Shown piece after piece: positions 37,981-43,584 of a stretch of 64,000 nt of DNA. The translations under genes were made by a program, and so were the position numbers. This stretch comes from Ruminococcus sp. Phil11 (GTDB lineage: Bacteria; Bacillota; Clostridia; Oscillospirales; Ruminococcaceae), in NCBI GenBank assembly GCA_001940925.1, contig MSGZ01000021.1, forward strand, positions 26,999 to 90,998. The letters are read 5' to 3'. The notes below the pieces were generated by a model that was not told the origin of the DNA, made no database searches, and saw only the letters and a program-made list of their open reading frames with translations. Each line of letters begins with the position of its first letter. The first letter of the stretch is position 1.

Positions 37981-38049
37981 CACTTTGTTACTGTTCAATT
38001 TGAGACACAGTGAGTCTCGAATTTGAAAAAGGATATACCACCGGTTTAC

Positions 38050-38078
38050 TTGACATTTCCGGAAAGGTATGCTATAAT
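38050..38078 (+). promoter_or_regulatory. Promoter of tRNA unit 1
   Basis: TTGACA - 17 nt - TATAAT with TG extended -10. Confidence 0.85.
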
Positions 38079-38135: not shown

Positions 38136-38276
38136 ATGAAAGCAATCATGAACAACGCAGTGTGCCTGTTTAGTTTTGAATACCAGCAGTTCTGCTATTT
38201 TCTCCAGCAAGAAAATGGTGCCTTTGTGCTGCACGCAAAACATACAGGTGTTTGTTCAGCTTCCCTGACAGGGTGA
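38136..38276 (+). CDS. 46-aa leader peptide, unit 1 (Phe-rich)
   Basis: MKAIMNNAVCLFSFEYQQFCYFLQQENGAFVLHAKHTGVCSASLTG; same length and partly similar to unit 2/3 leaders (MNN..EY..VLH). Confidence 0.7.
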   Translation: MKAIMNNAVCLFSFEYQQFCYFLQQENGAFVLHAKHTGVCSASLTG

Positions 38277-38321
38277 GCATAGATTGTGTTTCATTGTGAA
38301 CCATCTTCTGATAGAACAAAG

Positions 38322-38361
38322 CCGTCTGTGTGCAGTATCGAAAGCACGCAGACGGTTTTTT
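38322..38361 (+). terminator. Attenuator terminator, unit 1
   Basis: CCGTCTGTGTGC-loop-GCACGCAGACGG followed by TTTTTT. Confidence 0.85.
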
Positions 38362-38388: not shown

Positions 38389-38619
38389 ATGTCTTCCGAT
38401 ACGCCGACGATCAACATGGCCGCGACCGGCGCAAACATCAAGGCGCTGATCAAAAACAAAGGGCTCAAGGTTGCCGATGTGCAAATCAGATGCGGCTTCA
38501 ACACGCCGCAGGCGATCTTCAAATGGATGCGCGGCGATGCGATGCCCACGATCGACAATATGGTGATTCTTGCGCATCTGCTCGATGTGACCATTGACAA
38601 GATCATCATTCTCAATTAA
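38389..38619 (+). CDS. Small XRE-like HTH protein (unit 1)
   Basis: NIKALIKNKGLKVADVQIRCGFNTPQAIFKWMRGDAMPTIDNMVILAHLLDVTIDKII. Confidence 0.85.
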   Translation: MSSDTPTINMAATGANIKALIKNKGLKVADVQIRCGFNTPQAIFKWMRGDAMPTIDNMVILAHLLDVTIDKIIILN

Positions 38620-38647: not shown

Positions 38648-38676
38648 TGATTCCGCTTCGTCTAACAGGCAGGACA
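38648..38676 (+). pseudogene. 5' half of a tRNA-Glu/Gln-like gene, truncated by palindromic element
   Basis: GATTCCGCTTCGTCTAACAGGCAGGACA then GCGGGCAGTGCCCGC; compare intact tRNA-Glu GGCCGCATCGTCTAATGGTCAGGACA. Confidence 0.55.
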
Positions 38677-38691
38677 GCGGGCAGTGCCCGC
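38677..38691. repeat. Palindromic REP-like core GCGGGCAGTGCCCGC
   Basis: Perfect inverted repeat; further copies at 38851, 43221 and a variant at 7444. Confidence 0.75.
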
Positions 38692-38744: not shown

Positions 38745-38820
38745 GCCTCTGTAGCTCAGTTGGTAGAGCACTGGTTTGAAGCACCAGTTGTCGCAAGTTC
38801 GATTCTTGCCGGAGGCACCA
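38745..38820 (+). tRNA. tRNA-Phe(GAA) with encoded CCA
   Basis: GCCTCTG/CGGAGGC acceptor, CTGGT-TTGAAGC-ACCAG anticodon arm, GCAAG-TTCGATT-CTTGC T-arm, ACCA. Confidence 0.92.
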
Positions 38821-38823
38821 AAT

Positions 38824-38850
38824 GATTCCGTTTCGTCTAATGGCAGGACA
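38824..38850 (+). pseudogene. Second truncated tRNA-Glu/Gln-like 5' half
   Basis: GATTCCGTTTCGTCTAATGGCAGGACA then GCGGGCAGTGCCCGC. Confidence 0.55.
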
Positions 38851-38865
38851 GCGGGCAGTGCCCGC
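38851..38865. repeat. REP-like palindrome GCGGGCAGTGCCCGC
   Basis: Identical to 38677 and 43221 copies. Confidence 0.75.
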
Positions 38866-38950
38866 GGCCAATTTCTAAAGTTCTCCGGAAGCGAAGAAAA
38901 GCAGAACAATATGGGCAGGTAAGCACCCAAAGCATATACCACCGGTTTAC

Positions 38951-38979
38951 TTGATTTATCCGCTCGTGTATGCTATAAT
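38951..38979 (+). promoter_or_regulatory. Promoter of tRNA unit 2
   Basis: TTGATT - 17 nt - TATAAT; the flanks match units 1 and 3. Confidence 0.7.
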
Positions 38980-39053
38980 GCAATCAACATCAGACAGGGG
39001 CAGCCGGAAACAGGCTGCTGCGTTGAGATCTTATTTGAAAGGAGTTGCCGAAA

Positions 39054-39194
39054 ATGACACGTTTCGCTATGAACAATCTGTACAGCCACAGTGAATATTA
39101 CCTCCTGAGCCTCTATCTGGAAGAGACTCTGATTGTGCTGCATACAGATCGTAGTGAATGTGTCGGAACCGCCGGCATGCGCATTTCAGGATAG
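39054..39194 (+). CDS. 46-aa leader peptide, unit 2 (Leu/Tyr-rich)
   Basis: MTRFAMNNLYSHSEYYLLSLYLEETLIVLHTDRSECVGTAGMRISG with upstream AAAGGAG; identical to the unit 3 ORF by eye. Confidence 0.7.
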   Translation: MTRFAMNNLYSHSEYYLLSLYLEETLIVLHTDRSECVGTAGMRISG

Positions 39195-39222
39195 CCTTTT
39201 TGTATGATATCCCTGAAACGAA

Positions 39223-39258
39223 ACACCGTCTGTATGCAGCGATACAGATGGTGTTTTT
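39223..39258 (+). terminator. Attenuator terminator, unit 2
   Basis: ACACCGTCTGTAT-gcagcg-ATACAGATGGTGT plus TTTTT. Confidence 0.85.
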
Positions 39259-39263
39259 GTTAT

Positions 39264-39336
39264 GTCCGTGTGATGGAATGGAATACATACTTGCCTCAGA
39301 CACAAGGTTTTGGGAGTTCGAATCTCCCCGCGGACA
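39264..39336 (+). tRNA. tRNA-Leu(CAG)-like, 73 nt, 5-nt variable loop
   Basis: GTCCGTG/CGCGGAC acceptor, CTTGC-CTCAGAC-ACAAG (one mismatch), gtttt variable loop, GGGAG-TTCGAAT-CTCCC. Confidence 0.75.
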
Positions 39337-39340
39337 CTTT

Positions 39341-39413
39341 GCAGGATTGATGGAACGGAATACATGACAGCCTCAAAAGCTGTATTTTAAGGGTTCAAAT
39401 CCCTTATCCTGCA
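39341..39413 (+). tRNA. tRNA-Leu(CAA)-like, 73 nt, 5-nt variable loop
   Basis: GCAGGAT/ATCCTGC, ACAGC-CTCAAAA-GCTGT, AAGGG-TTCAAAT-CCCTT. Confidence 0.8.
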
Positions 39414-39576
39414 TGATTGATAACCCAATTAACTCTCGAATTTATCTGCTTGTCTAAATGCCAATCTGCCGCGTCAGAAATCCTTGCCTTGCGTCAGCAA
39501 GGCGGTGGCTTTCTTCCTTGCATATTGACATTTATACTGCGCATCTAATATTCAAGAGTTAATTGGAACATCAATA
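39414..39576. repeat. MITE-like imperfect inverted-repeat insertion between two tRNA genes
   Basis: Ends CCAATTAACTCTCGAAT / ATTCAAGAGTTAATTGG; absent at the equivalent position of unit 3 (42801-42803). Confidence 0.7.
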
Positions 39577-39650
39577 GCTCTTGTAGCCCAAATGGCAGAG
39601 GCAGCGGATTTAAACCCCGTTAAGTATGAGTTCGACTCTCATCAGGAGCA
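39577..39650 (+). tRNA. tRNA-Leu(UAA)-like, short variable loop
   Basis: GCTCTTG/CAGGAGC, loop TTTAAAC, ATGAG-TTCGACT-CTCAT; anticodon stem imperfect in this copy. Confidence 0.7.
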
Positions 39651-39682
39651 TCAGGGATATGACAAGAAAGGAGATGTTTTCC

Positions 39683-39907
39683 ATGCCGATTATTGATGTT
39701 GCAGCGACCGGTGCGAATATCAAATCCATGATGCGCACGAAAGGTTTTAAGGTGTCTGATGTTCAGGCGCGCTGCGGATTCAATACGCCGCAGGCGATTT
39801 TCAAATGGATGCGCGGCGATTCTGTGCCGACCATCGACAATATGATTATCATTGCAGATATGTTTGGCGTAACGATTGACCAGATCGTTGTCACCAAAAG
39901 AATCTGA
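39683..39907 (+). CDS. Small XRE-like HTH protein (unit 2)
   Basis: MPIIDVAATGANIKSMMRTKGFKVSDVQARCGFNTPQAIFKWMRGDSVPTIDNMIIIADMFGVTIDQIVVTKRI. Confidence 0.85.
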   Translation: MPIIDVAATGANIKSMMRTKGFKVSDVQARCGFNTPQAIFKWMRGDSVPTIDNMIIIADMFGVTIDQIVVTKRI

Positions 39908-39926
39908 CTGCTTGAAGCAGTTAAAT

Positions 39927-39998
39927 GGCCGCATCGTCTAATGGTCAGGATGCTGGATTCTCATTCCGGCGATACGGGTTCAAGTCCCGCTGCGGTTA
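39927..39998 (+). tRNA. tRNA-Glu(CUC)
   Basis: GGCCGCA/TGCGGTT acceptor with G-U pairs, CTGGA-TTCTCAT-TCCGG, GGGTTCAAGTCCC. Confidence 0.8.
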
Positions 39999-40003
39999 TC
40001 AAT

Positions 40004-40076
40004 GTCCGTGTGGTGGAATGGCAGACACACCCGGCTAAGAACCGGCACACTGAGGGTTCGACTCCCTCCACGGATA
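40004..40076 (+). tRNA. tRNA-Leu(AAG)-like, short variable loop
   Basis: GTCCGTG/CACGGAT, loop CTAAGAA, GAGGG-TTCGACT-CCCTC. Confidence 0.78.
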
Positions 40077-40080
40077 CTAA

Positions 40081-40119: not shown

Positions 40120-40554
40120 ATGGACGATGATCGGTTCAAATGTTATCTTATGGATACCGGCTTGCTCATCAACCTGAGCTTCGGTGACGGCAGTTATATG
40201 GACAACGATTTTTACAGGGCAATCCTGACCGACCGCCTGCATATCAATGAGGGAATGTTCGTAGAGAATGTCATCGCGCAATGCCTCCGTACAAACGGGC
40301 ACAAGGTCATTTTCTATGTCGAGTATGACAAGCAGGGGAAAATGGCAATGGAGATTGATTTCCTGATTCGGATTGACAGGAAGATCGTTCCGATTGAAGC
40401 GAAATCCGGCAAACAGTATACAACCAAATCGCTGCTCAAGTTCAAGGAGAAGTTCACCAACAAAGTCGGCAGACAGTATGTGCTGCATGAGGGTGATCTC
40501 CGCGTCGAGGGCGAGGTTGTGTATCTGCCATATTATATGGCTGCGATCCTGTGA
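40120..40554 (+). pseudogene. C-terminal fragment of an AAA ATPase with DUF4143-like domain
   Basis: KCYLMDTGLLINLSF...NEGMFVENVIAQCLRTNGHKVIFYVEYDKQGKMAMEIDFLI...VPIEAKSGKQYTTKSLLKFKEKF; no ATPase N-terminus. Confidence 0.75.
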
Positions 40555-40702: not shown

Positions 40703-40908
40703 GGAGAAATTTGGACACAAAGCTGCGCGCTTTTTGAGCGAACAACGAGCCGGATTTTTGAGATTTTTAGGAAATTCTTGCGAAAATAGCGTTTGATGAA
40801 AATAGAGAAAATTGAGTTTGCTTTTTGTGCATGATGCTAGGATGCGAATTGTGGCGGATTGTGGTATAATAAAGATAGTCCAATTCCGGTTTGCAAGGAG
40901 GTTATCAT

Positions 40909-41826
40909 ATGGCAGTACCAAAATATAGTGAATTCATGCCGTCCATTATTCGCTGCTTAGGCGATGGAGAAACATATACTCTCAGACAAGTCGTTGACTA
41001 TTGCGCAGCAGAATTTCAATTATCAGATGATGATAAAGAGGAAACTCTAGCAAGCGGTCAGAATACATTGCTGAATCGTGTTAGCTGGGCGAAAACCTAC
41101 CTGAAAAAAGCCGGATTGATTGAGAGTCCTAAACGAGCCAGCTTTTGTCTAACCGATGCAGGACGAAAAGCATTAAAGCAGGGAGCGGATTGCGTTACTT
41201 TACAATACCTGGAACAGTTTGAATCTTTCACTGCTTTTCACGGAAAGGCATCTGCGGGCAGCACTGATGGGAGCGATGTGACAGTTATTCAGACGCAAAG
41301 TCCGCAGGAGCAGATTGAGTCTGCTTTGAATGAACTGAATGAGGAACTTGCCAGCGATCTAATGACGGAGATTATGAAAATCTCTCCGTTTGAATTTGAG
41401 CACCTTGTTGTCAAACTACTGATAAAAATGGGGTACGGAAAACCAAGTGAAAATAAGGATGCTGTCACACCGAAATCCGGCGATGAGGGAATTGACGGTG
41501 TAGTCAGCGCGGACAAGTTTGGATTTGATTCCATCTATATACAGGCAAAACAATGGAAATCGGACAGCACTGTGAGCAGACCGGAGATTCAGAAGTTTTT
41601 GGGAGCACTTGCAGGACAAGGTGCATCAAAGGGTATCTTTATTACGACAGCCAAGTTTTCAAAGGAAGCCGAAGCCTATGCTGCCAAACAGCTTCATACG
41701 AAAATTGTACTGGTCGATGGGATTCAGCTTGCTAAGCTGATGATTGAATACGATCTGGGCGTGTCAACGGCGGCTACATATCAGGTTAAGCGGATTGATT
41801 CTGATTTCTTTAGCGATGATGTATAA
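40909..41826 (+). CDS. Mrr-like restriction endonuclease
   Basis: N-terminal winged helix; Mrr catalytic core FEFEHLVVKLLIKMGY...GDEGIDGVV...IYIQAKQW. Confidence 0.9.
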   Translation: MAVPKYSEFMPSIIRCLGDGETYTLRQVVDYCAAEFQLSDDDKEETLASGQNTLLNRVSWAKTYLKKAGLIESPKRASFCLTDAGRKALKQGADCVTLQYLEQFESFTAFHGKASAGSTDGSDVTVIQTQSPQEQIESALNELNEELASDLMTEIMKISPFEFEHLVVKLLIKMGYGKPSENKDAVTPKSGDEGIDGVVSADKFGFDSIYIQAKQWKSDSTVSRPEIQKFLGALAGQGASKGIFITTAKFSKEAEAYAAKQLHTKIVLVDGIQLAKLMIEYDLGVSTAATYQVKRIDSDFFSDDV

Positions 41827-41914: not shown

Positions 41915-42140
41915 CTTTTCGGAGGTTCATGCCCTGCGCCACACTTCTGCGACCTTGCTCCTTTACTCCGGTGTCAATATCCGGCAGGTACAGTCGCGGC
42001 TCGGTCACGGCAATATCACCACGACGCAGCACTATCTGCACGCAATCAAGGATGCCGATGAGGAAGCGGTCAATGCTCTGCAAAACCTGCTGATTACGCA
42101 GCATAAGGCGGATGCTGAGGCAAAGCGCAAGGCGGAATAA
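41915..42140 (+). pseudogene. Integrase C-terminal fragment, near-duplicate of 22415-22627
   Basis: LRHTSATLLLYSGVNIRQVQSRLGHGNITTTQHYLHAIKDADEEAVNALQNLL. Confidence 0.88.
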
Positions 42141-42235
42141 TACAAAACACGGGAGCAGTCCGGTCTGGTCTGTTCCTGTGTTTGCTTTTTATGGGGTGAC
42201 TTAGGCTCACCTCACAGCATCAACAAAAGCACAAA

Positions 42236-42270: not shown

Positions 42271-42333
42271 GTTACTGTTCAATTTGAGACATAGTGTGTC
42301 TTAAATTAGAAAAAGAATATACCACCGGTTTAC

Positions 42334-42362
42334 TTGACATTTCCGCTCGGGTATGCTATAAT
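42334..42362 (+). promoter_or_regulatory. Promoter of tRNA unit 3
   Basis: TTGACA - 17 nt - TATAAT with TG extended -10. Confidence 0.85.
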
Positions 42363-42438
42363 GCAATCAACATCAGACATGGGCAGCCGGAAACCGGCTG
42401 CTGCGCTGAATCATCTATTATGAAAGGAGATGCCGAAA

Positions 42439-42579
42439 ATGACACGTTTCGCTATGAACAATCTGTACAGCCACAGTGAATATTACCTCCTGAGCCTCTA
42501 TCTGGAAGAGACTCTGATTGTGCTGCATACAGATCGTAGTGAATGTGTCGGAACCGCCGGCATGCGCATTTCAGGATAG
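42439..42579 (+). CDS. 46-aa leader peptide, unit 3 (Leu/Tyr-rich)
   Basis: Same peptide as unit 2; AAAGGAG upstream. Confidence 0.7.
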   Translation: MTRFAMNNLYSHSEYYLLSLYLEETLIVLHTDRSECVGTAGMRISG

Positions 42580-42607
42580 CCTTTTTGTATGATATCCCTG
42601 AAACGAA

Positions 42608-42643
42608 ACACCGTCTGTATGCAGCGATACAGGCGGTGTTTTT
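42608..42643 (+). terminator. Attenuator terminator, unit 3
   Basis: ACACCGTCTGTAT-gcagcg-ATACAGGCGGTGT plus TTTT. Confidence 0.85.
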
Positions 42644-42648
42644 ATTAT

Positions 42649-42721
42649 GTCCGTGTGATGGAATGGAATACATACTTGCCTCAGACACAAGGTTTTGGGA
42701 GTTCGAATCTCCCCGCGGACA
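42649..42721 (+). tRNA. tRNA-Leu(CAG)-like, short variable loop
   Basis: Same sequence as 39264-39336. Confidence 0.75.
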
Positions 42722-42727
42722 TTTTTA

Positions 42728-42800
42728 GCAGGATTGATGGAACGGAATACATGACAGCCTCAAAAGCTGTATTCTAAGGGTTCAAATCCCTTATCCTGCA
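42728..42800 (+). tRNA. tRNA-Leu(CAA)-like, short variable loop
   Basis: Near-identical to 39341-39413. Confidence 0.8.
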
Positions 42801-42803
42801 TTT

Positions 42804-42876
42804 GCTCTTGTAGCCCAATGGAAGAGGCAGCGGATTTAAACTCCGCGCAGTATGAGTTCGACTCTCATCAGGAGCA
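42804..42876 (+). tRNA. tRNA-Leu(UAA)-like, short variable loop
   Basis: GCTCTTG/CAGGAGC, GCGGA-TTTAAAC-TCCGC perfect stem, ATGAG-TTCGACT-CTCAT. Confidence 0.82.
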
Positions 42877-42908
42877 TCAGGGATATTACAGGAAAGGAGA
42901 TGTTTACA

Positions 42909-43133
42909 ATGCCAATTATTGATGTAGCTGCAACCGGTGCGAATATCAAATCCATGATGCGCACGAAAGGCTTTAAGGTTGCTGATGTGCAGGCAGCGTG
43001 CGGATTTAATACCCCGCAGGCGATCTTCAAATGGATGCGCGGCGATTCTGTGCCGACCATCGACAACATGATTATTATTGCAGATATGTTTGGTGTGACG
43101 ATCGATCAGATCGTTGTGATCAAAAGAATCTGA
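42909..43133 (+). CDS. Small XRE-like HTH protein (unit 3)
   Basis: MPIIDVAATGANIKSMMRTKGFKVADVQAACGFNTPQAIFKWMRGDSVPTIDNMIIIADMFGVTIDQIVVIKRI. Confidence 0.85.
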   Translation: MPIIDVAATGANIKSMMRTKGFKVADVQAACGFNTPQAIFKWMRGDSVPTIDNMIIIADMFGVTIDQIVVIKRI

Positions 43134-43151
43134 CTGCTTCGGCAGTCACAG

Positions 43152-43223
43152 GGCCGCATCGTCTAATGGTCAGGACACCGGATTCTCAATCCGGCGATAC
43201 GGGTTCAAGTCCCGCTGCGGGCG
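43152..43223 (+). tRNA. tRNA-Glu(CUC)
   Basis: GGCCGCA/TGCGGGC, CCGGA-TTCTCAA-TCCGG. Confidence 0.8.
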
Positions 43224-43235
43224 GGCAGTGCCCGC
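43221..43235. repeat. REP-like palindrome abutting tRNA-Glu 3' end
   Basis: GCGGGCAGTGCCCGC. Confidence 0.75.
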
Positions 43236-43318
43236 AGCCGATTTTATTCTCCGGCAGCGATACTTGTTATTGTAATTGGTATCGCTCCTGAGAGATGATT
43301 CATTATCTTTTATAATAT

Positions 43319-43393
43319 GTCCGTGTGATGGAATTTGGAATACATACTTGGCTAAGAACCAGGGTTTTGGGAGTTCGAGTCTCCCCACGGATA
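43319..43393 (+). tRNA. tRNA-Leu(AAG)-like, short variable loop
   Basis: GTCCGTG/CACGGAT, CTTGG-CTAAGAA-CCAGG, gtttt, GGGAG-TTCGAGT-CTCCC. Confidence 0.8.
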
Positions 43394-43401
43394 CTCAATA
43401 T

Positions 43402-43485
43402 GGGCAAGTACGCATAGCGGCGATTGCAGCGGACTGTAAATCCGTCACGTTAGATACACCGCAGGTTCGATTCCTGCCTTGCCCA
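43402..43485 (+). tRNA. tRNA-Tyr(GUA), class II with long variable arm
   Basis: GGGCAAG/CTTGCCC, loop CTGTAAA, GCAGG-TTCGATT-CCTGC. Confidence 0.92.
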
Positions 43486-43584
43486 TCGTCTGCGCCCGCC
43501 TCCAATTTTATTCTCAAAGAGCGATACTTGTCATTTTGACCGGTACCGCTCCGAAGGGAATCATTACTTTCATTATTCATTATT

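Follow-up and report, generated by a model that had tools for sequence, protein, structure and literature searches.

Organization of the three units

Three units were located at 38.0-38.9, 38.9-40.1, and 42.3-43.5 kb of the window, that is, of the whole 64,000-nucleotide stretch of Ruminococcus sp. Phil11 DNA analyzed here. They share their promoter element, and each combines a leader ORF of 46 codons with an antiterminator/terminator switch, a gene for an XRE/HTH_3 protein of 74-76 residues, and tRNA genes. The first, unit 1, spans about 38.0-38.9 kb and has the following features.

38032-38078, + strand: promoter (-35 TTGACA at 38050-38055, 17 nt, -10 TATAAT at 38073-38078)
38136-38276, + strand: leader ORF MKAIMNNAVCLFSFEYQQFCYFLQQENGAFVLHAKHTGVCSASLTG (sequence; homologous leaders exist)
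38158-38186, + strand: arm 1 (protector), pairing with arm 2 inside the ORF, codons 8-17 (fold without the terminator)
38229-38237, + strand: arm 2, antiterminator 5' strand, CTGCACGCA (sequence, pairing, covariation, and folding)
38318-38360, + strand: intrinsic terminator (sequence and folding)
38389-38619, + strand: XRE/HTH_3 protein, 76 aa (HTH_3, PF01381, E 5.8e-8)
about 38648-38690, + strand: truncated tRNA-Gln remnant, 5' part (position resembles the intact Gln(CTG) of L013/L014/L018)
38745-38820, + strand: tRNA-Phe(GAA), array copy (tRNA prediction)
about 38822-38865, + strand: second truncated tRNA-Gln remnant (comparison with relatives)

The leader ORF runs from the ATG at 38136 to the TGA at 38274-38276 and includes five Phe codons (positions 12, 14, 19, 22, and 30) and four Gln codons. 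An earlier note on this DNA had reported the promoter, the 46-codon ORF, the five Phe codons, the terminator, and two complementary segments for unit 1, and all of them are present where it placed them. It had also described a 12-bp terminator with T6; the T6 is found at 38355-38360, but the computed stem is 15 bp long (-24.7 kcal/mol). The 5' arm of this terminator, arm 3, includes TGTGTGCAG (38327-38335). tRNA-Phe is the sole intact tRNA of unit 1 and is flanked on either side by the truncated tRNA-Gln genes, where relatives have intact Gln(CTG) and Gln(TTG); unit 1 once had tRNA-Gln genes as well. The number of Phe codons is modest, as the earlier note had cautioned, because the same leader also carries Gln codons; these codons, together with the two tRNA-Gln genes that are truncated here and intact in relatives, answer that reservation. 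A GGGCAGTGCCCGC palindrome occurs at 38679, 38853, and 43223 of the window, where tRNA genes end or are truncated, and may be a deletion or insertion scar. The anticodon loop of the array tRNA-Phe (38745-38820) reads TTGAAGC (G37), whereas the canonical tRNA-Phe (L144) has CTGAAAA (A37); the usual i6A37-type modification site would thus be lost.

Units 2 and 3 are arranged as follows.

38933-38980, + strand: unit 2 promoter with the shared near-palindrome (sequence, shared element)
39054-39194, + strand: unit 2 leader ORF MTRFAMNNLYSHSEYYLLSLYLEETLIVLHTDRSECVGTAGMRISG (sequence)
39138-39148, + strand: unit 2 arm 2, CTGCATACAGA (folding)
39222-39259, + strand: unit 2 terminator, with arm 3 TCTGTATGCAG at 39229-39239 (folding)
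39264-39650, + strand: unit 2 tRNA-Leu(CAG), Leu(CAA), and Leu(TAA) (tRNA prediction)
39683-39907, + strand: unit 2 XRE protein (ORF and domain match)
39926-40077, + strand: unit 2 tRNA-Glu(CTC) and tRNA-Leu(AAG) (tRNA prediction)
42316-42363, + strand: unit 3 promoter with the shared near-palindrome (sequence, shared element)
42439-42579, + strand: unit 3 leader ORF, peptide identical to that of unit 2 (sequence)
42523-42533, + strand: unit 3 arm 2 (folding)
42605-42645, + strand: unit 3 terminator, with arm 3 TCTGTATGCAG from 42614 (folding)
42648-42878, + strand: unit 3 tRNA-Leu(CAG), Leu(CAA), and Leu(TAA) (tRNA prediction)
42909-43133, + strand: unit 3 XRE protein (ORF)
43152-43487, + strand: unit 3 tRNA-Glu(CTC), Leu(AAG), and Tyr(GTA) (tRNA prediction)

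The tRNA sets of units 2 and 3 are alike (Leu CAG/CAA/TAA/AAG and Glu CTC), with tRNA-Tyr in unit 3 only. Their tRNA-Leu genes are 73-76 nt long, compared with 82-89 nt for the other tRNA-Leu genes of the genome. The array tRNA-Leu (39264-40077 and 42648-43394) have a class I shape without the long variable arm, unlike canonical tRNA-Leu. Because separate canonical Phe, Leu, Glu(TTC), and Tyr tRNAs are encoded elsewhere in the genome, the array tRNAs are redundant as well as divergent. Between units 2 and 3 lie a complete Mrr-type (type IV) restriction enzyme gene (40903-41826) and a DUF4143 fragment (40120-40554). Just upstream of unit 3, at about 41933-42141, is a C-terminal fragment resembling a tyrosine recombinase (HTFATLLYSGVNIRQVQSRLGHGNITTTQHYLH), which suggests past mobility.

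The element ATACCACCGGTTTACTTGA is common to all three units, with three zero-mismatch matches in the window and none expected by chance, and the only zero-mismatch sites of the unit promoter near-palindrome genome-wide are those of the three units. In unit 1, the near-palindrome TATACCACCGGTTTAC overlaps the promoter; the conserved near-palindrome, with the site TATAC-N5-GTWTA, overlaps the -35 box and is a candidate operator for the XRE protein.

Folding and covariation of the leader RNA

The RNA structure calculation that the earlier note had proposed for unit 1 gave a fold far better than shuffled sequences (z = -5.4), and the leader of unit 2 gave a similar value (z = -5.1). Folding and covariation together define three mutually exclusive helices: a protector (1:2), an antiterminator (2:3), and the terminator (3:4). 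Arm 2 sits at the Val-Leu-His codons of the leader ORFs and pairs with arm 1 inside the ORF, at codons 8-17 in unit 1 and 4-11 in units 2 and 3. The alternative pairing of arm 2 with arm 3 has a computed energy of -17.7 kcal/mol in unit 1 and -22.6 kcal/mol in units 2 and 3. The antiterminator that the earlier note had thought possible, between CTGCACGCA and TGTGTGCAG, was borne out as a 12-bp 2:3 pairing that exceeds those of codon-shuffled ORFs (p = 0.015, z = 2.7) and covaries among homologues.

When the ribosome was modeled as a barrier, a stall at any tested core codon from 9 to 25 freed arm 2, and the probability of 2:3 pairing before arm 4 is made was 0.98-1.0, while at later stall codons the ribosome covered arm 2. 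The concern that the last Phe codon lies too near the pairing segment is therefore correct for that codon, at which a stalled ribosome would mask the segment; with stalls at codons 12-25 the segment stays accessible. When the RNA could also pair across the ribosome, the switch was flipped by early stalls only; in this calculation the start of unit 2 had been set one codon late, and unit 3, which has the same leader and was given the correct start, showed the same picture. As in trp/phe-type attenuators, a translatable short ORF with a Shine-Dalgarno sequence lies upstream of an intrinsic terminator, and in the barrier folding model a ribosome that stalls at the control codons releases the antiterminator strand. 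The ribosome-stalling layout ahead of a tRNA gene, which had been proposed for unit 1, is thus supported by the 1:2, 2:3, and 3:4 helices, with the regulation itself being predicted from the model.

Among 44 distinct arm pairs, 90.3% of the cells of the antiterminator pair. Both sides had changed in 22 cells, compared with 8.4 in shuffles, a value reached by 0/500 shuffles, and sliding the partner strands abolished most of the pairing. These compensatory changes indicate selection on the pairing. Homologous units lacking both the ORF and the pairing had been named as a finding that would speak against the proposal; the leader ORF and the covarying pairing in fact recur in most of the homologous units examined. 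In some divergent units the 2:3 pairing is weak, or the terminator was not found by our script. Three copies in the window and dozens of homologues rule out a chance repeat as the origin of the unit layout. A search of the window against Rfam gave no T-box match (Stem I, specifier loop, T-box antiterminator) at the gathering score, and no other Rfam family matched the leader, so that a known RNA family was rejected there. The protector stem, the homologous leaders, the former tRNA-Gln genes, the correspondence between leaders and tRNAs, and the RNA-repair context described below go beyond the earlier note.

Distribution of homologous units

With the XRE protein as the query, homologous units turned up in 10 of the 30 genomes searched for the genus, in 25 of 398 for the family, and in 8 other genomes of 391 for the class. 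Across 84,980 species genomes, 149 stretches were obtained and, among the matches listed, most came from ruminal Ruminococcus and Lachnospiraceae; a few viral contigs also carry such units. The XRE gene is present in nearly every bacterial unit. A search for further viral contigs with the leader alignment recovered just the same two. Six Lachnospiraceae units (L071, L073, L076, L081, L085, and L087) have the leader and XRE without tRNA genes, and no degenerate tRNAs were detected in them even at E 0.1.

Leader residues and the tRNAs of the same unit

Leader ORFs were chosen by promoter, ribosome-binding site, terminator, and complementarity, and residue content was not used. In 58 units, all array isotypes (186/186) have a codon in their own leader, whereas shuffling gave a mean of 0.848 and a maximum of 0.909. 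Many leaders are homologous and the units are not fully independent; the test of the leader core was carried out with the 58 units collapsed to 43, 27, 24, or 23 clusters. At 24 clusters, cognate residues made up 0.51 of the core, compared with 0.32 when tRNA sets were shuffled among all units and 0.44 when they were shuffled within leader families, and 0/20000 permutations reached the observed value in every setting. Each of the ten amino acids tested was commoner in the leader core when the matching tRNA was present. Non-cognate residues account for about half of the core. The within-family shuffling rejects family bias alone as the cause of leader composition.

Individual leaders illustrate the correspondence. 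SEHYEESFYHESEE is the leader of R. flavefaciens units whose tRNAs are Glu, His, Tyr, and Ser, and LYSGITLSLSLSLELEE is that of units encoding Leu, Tyr, Glu, and Ser tRNAs. The leader YQWCFTFGFCFVQQ belongs to L092 (tRNAs Gln, Cys, Phe, Gln, Trp), QQFQFRFFRQWQ to L088 (Trp, Phe, Gln), and DFDDYQCDFSFSFAWQDDSS to unit 2 of L025 (Asp, Gln, Cys, Gln, Trp, Ser). As in known attenuators, the control codons are enriched for the residues of the regulated genes, the regulated genes here being the tRNAs themselves. Comparison of the units shows that, judged by composition, the residues of a leader list the tRNAs of its own unit.

Dissimilar leaders and a 253-kb viral contig

The contig IMGVR_UViG_3300028591_000074 (L168; 253,527 bp) encodes 26 tRNAs for all 20 amino acids and contains three units. 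The leader MKIYETINFTMIVDHPATRGFSFVCKFDAPVDPDAIATGRTG... precedes Ala, Val, Arg, Gly, Arg, Thr, Asp, Pro, and Met tRNAs; MMYQSISNQIKNIRNQFCYKNWFNC... precedes Phe, Ile, Lys, Lys, Trp, Gln, Cys, Asn, and Arg tRNAs; and MTTFRSLYLHSELSESLYSS... precedes Leu, Glu, His, Ser, and Tyr tRNAs. Every array isotype is found in the leader of its own unit, and the match holds even though two of the three units have no adjoining XRE gene. A terminase search (PF03237) on this contig gave no match; its phage nature rests on the IMG/VR classification and on matches to a phage-type RNA ligase and Thg1.

The same rule is followed by other leaders without obvious similarity. Unit B of L186/L189 has the leader INKQFNNKQFMQFCKNQKCF and tRNAs Gln, Cys, Phe, Lys, Lys, Gln, and Asn (read in L186 and L197), unit 1 of L086 has IQNKLQFWCINKNW and tRNAs Phe, Ile, Gln, Lys, Trp, Gln, Cys, Asn, and Lys, and the gut scaffold MT835533 has YKFHSDYKHESHYDCSF and tRNAs Phe, Lys, Glu, and Asp; the leader of L227 obeys the rule. 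In a matrix of 13 leaders, 0/100,000 permutations scored as high as the true assignment; these leaders were hand-chosen, with a few of the tRNA sets filled in by eye, which makes the 58-unit core test the fairer one.

RNA-repair genes beside several units

An RNA ligase gene (PF09414 and PF21189) lies directly downstream of XRE in L015, L091, and L099 and after the tRNAs in L082, L093, L107, and L108; it is otherwise rare (4/61 relatives). RtcB adjoins units in L231, L228, L229, and L114; L231 has two RlaP genes as well, and on the 253-kb viral contig a kinase-phosphatase-ligase protein, RlaP, and Thg1 adjoin the array. Viral relatives of the kinase-phosphatase-ligase protein have few or no tRNAs in the stretches examined. 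A DUF2828/DUF7788 protein with a vWA-like region is encoded beside the RtcB-array cluster (L231, 5333-6868) and on the viral contig (L181, 501-aa ORF).

Phage tRNAs counter anticodon nucleases (PMC10264068, PMC11555353), and the repair operon rtcBA responds to tRNA fragments via the protein sensor RtcR (PMC7790460). Because several units adjoin RNA-repair genes, we favor tRNA cleavage as the trigger, and anticodon nucleases are the likely natural source of it.

Proposed mechanism and alternative explanations

The folding model and the comparison of leaders make it highly probable that the units act as ribosome-mediated transcription attenuators, each controlling a reserve tRNA set and sensing a shortage of any of several charged tRNAs. 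RNA polymerase would start at the strong sigma-70-type promoter, probably under repression by the unit's own XRE protein, and a ribosome would translate the leader ORF, whose central 15-25 codons are largely for residues with tRNAs in that unit. With the matching charged tRNAs plentiful, the ribosome would run through, arm 2 would be covered or re-paired with arm 1, the 3:4 helix would form, and transcription would end. If any matching tRNA were scarce, the ribosome would stall in the core on arm 1 and, as the folding suggests, arm 2 would pair with arm 3 while arm 4 is still to be transcribed; this would block the terminator, and the polymerase would enter the reserve tRNA genes and, in relatives, the RNA ligase gene. 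The restored tRNA supply may then close the loop by negative feedback. More broadly, the units probably represent a mobile, self-correcting class of tRNA-damage response, present in Clostridia of the rumen and gut as well as on viral contigs, in which multi-amino-acid leaders would act as OR-gates releasing reserve tRNAs and RNA-repair enzymes.

Classical trp/phe-type attenuators respond to charged-tRNA levels. The same attenuator might accordingly serve in amino-acid starvation, the signal being a poor supply of the amino acid or an inhibited synthetase, with the added tRNAs raising decoding capacity, and the leader alone cannot distinguish an uncharged from a cleaved tRNA. However, the cargo consists of tRNA and RNA-repair genes rather than genes for biosynthesis or synthetases, an extra tRNA is useless if its amino acid is missing, and up to nine amino acids per leader fit tRNA loss better than one starved pathway, so we regard starvation control as unlikely.

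Somewhat less probable still is that the XRE protein is the real regulator, with the leader serving either as a terminator that is minor or constitutive or as a sensor of any slowing of translation, for instance by antibiotics. The conserved near-palindrome over the -35 box, the XRE gene in nearly every bacterial unit, and the six units that retain leader and XRE without tRNAs are all consistent with it; yet it leaves the match between leader residues and tRNA identity unexplained, and the two viral units that lack an adjoining XRE obey the rule. That the arrays are decaying mobile-element debris and the match is shared ancestry only is very improbable: leaders do group in a few homologous families, and truncated tRNAs and restriction-gene and integrase-like fragments are present nearby, but the match persists when the units are collapsed to 23 clusters or shuffled within families and extends to dissimilar leaders, and the compensatory antiterminator changes indicate selection.

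Relation to known systems

Like the attenuators of the trp/phe/his type (including pheM-pheST of E. coli), the proposed attenuator has a short ORF with control codons and 1:2, 2:3, and 3:4 helices, and a stall at the control codons is predicted to give readthrough. It differs in that its control codons represent as many as nine amino acids, not just one or a few from a single pathway, that its cargo is tRNA and RNA-repair genes rather than biosynthetic or synthetase genes, and that a small XRE gene is part of the unit. T-box leaders in Firmicutes likewise control transcription termination by sensing charged tRNA; in the units described here, by contrast, the predicted sensor is a translated ORF, and loss of the tRNA itself could be sensed.

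By analogy with the reserve tRNAs of phages, which are extra tRNAs of divergent sequence that replace cut host tRNAs (PMC10264068; PMC11555353), the arrays, as redundant and divergent copies of canonically encoded tRNAs, may have a similar role. One of these two papers describes a very strong promoter driving the phage tRNA, and neither mentions leader peptides or attenuation; for the units described here, in contrast, production on demand is predicted, and most of them are in bacterial genomes. The RtcR-controlled rtcBA operon (PMC7790460) is also an RNA-repair response to tRNA damage, and RtcB adjoins some units. RtcR, however, senses tRNA fragments through a protein CARF domain, whereas in our model a stalled ribosome would sense the loss of function and replacement tRNAs would be made. 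No earlier description of such tRNA-sensing attenuators was found in the open-access full-text literature.

The presence of redundant tRNA arrays in phages and some bacteria has long called for an explanation. The leaders may be read as a written record of what induces an array, namely, loss of the very tRNAs that it encodes. If this is true, leader residues would predict both cargo and inducer by a simple rule, tRNA loss would be sensed without a dedicated protein, and leader-peptide attenuation, reserve tRNAs, and RNA repair would be linked in gut and rumen bacteria and their viruses. The units would also offer natural multi-input sensors of tRNA shortage that are usable as reporters.

Composition of the tRNA arrays

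The bacterial arrays tallied in the 58 units encode only Leu, Glu, Tyr, His, Ser, Gln, Phe, Cys, Trp, and Asp tRNAs; a few others encode Lys, Asn, and Ile tRNAs. No tallied bacterial unit has a tRNA for Ala, Gly, Val, Pro, Thr, or Met, and Arg appears once, as a doubtful call; just these seven amino acids, plus Asp, are those of a third unit on the viral contig L168. In the Eubacterium ruminantium array (L086, 1681-2250), several tRNAs carry hairpin insertions (CTCGGTCGGTGCT...AGCACCC) at their 3' ends.
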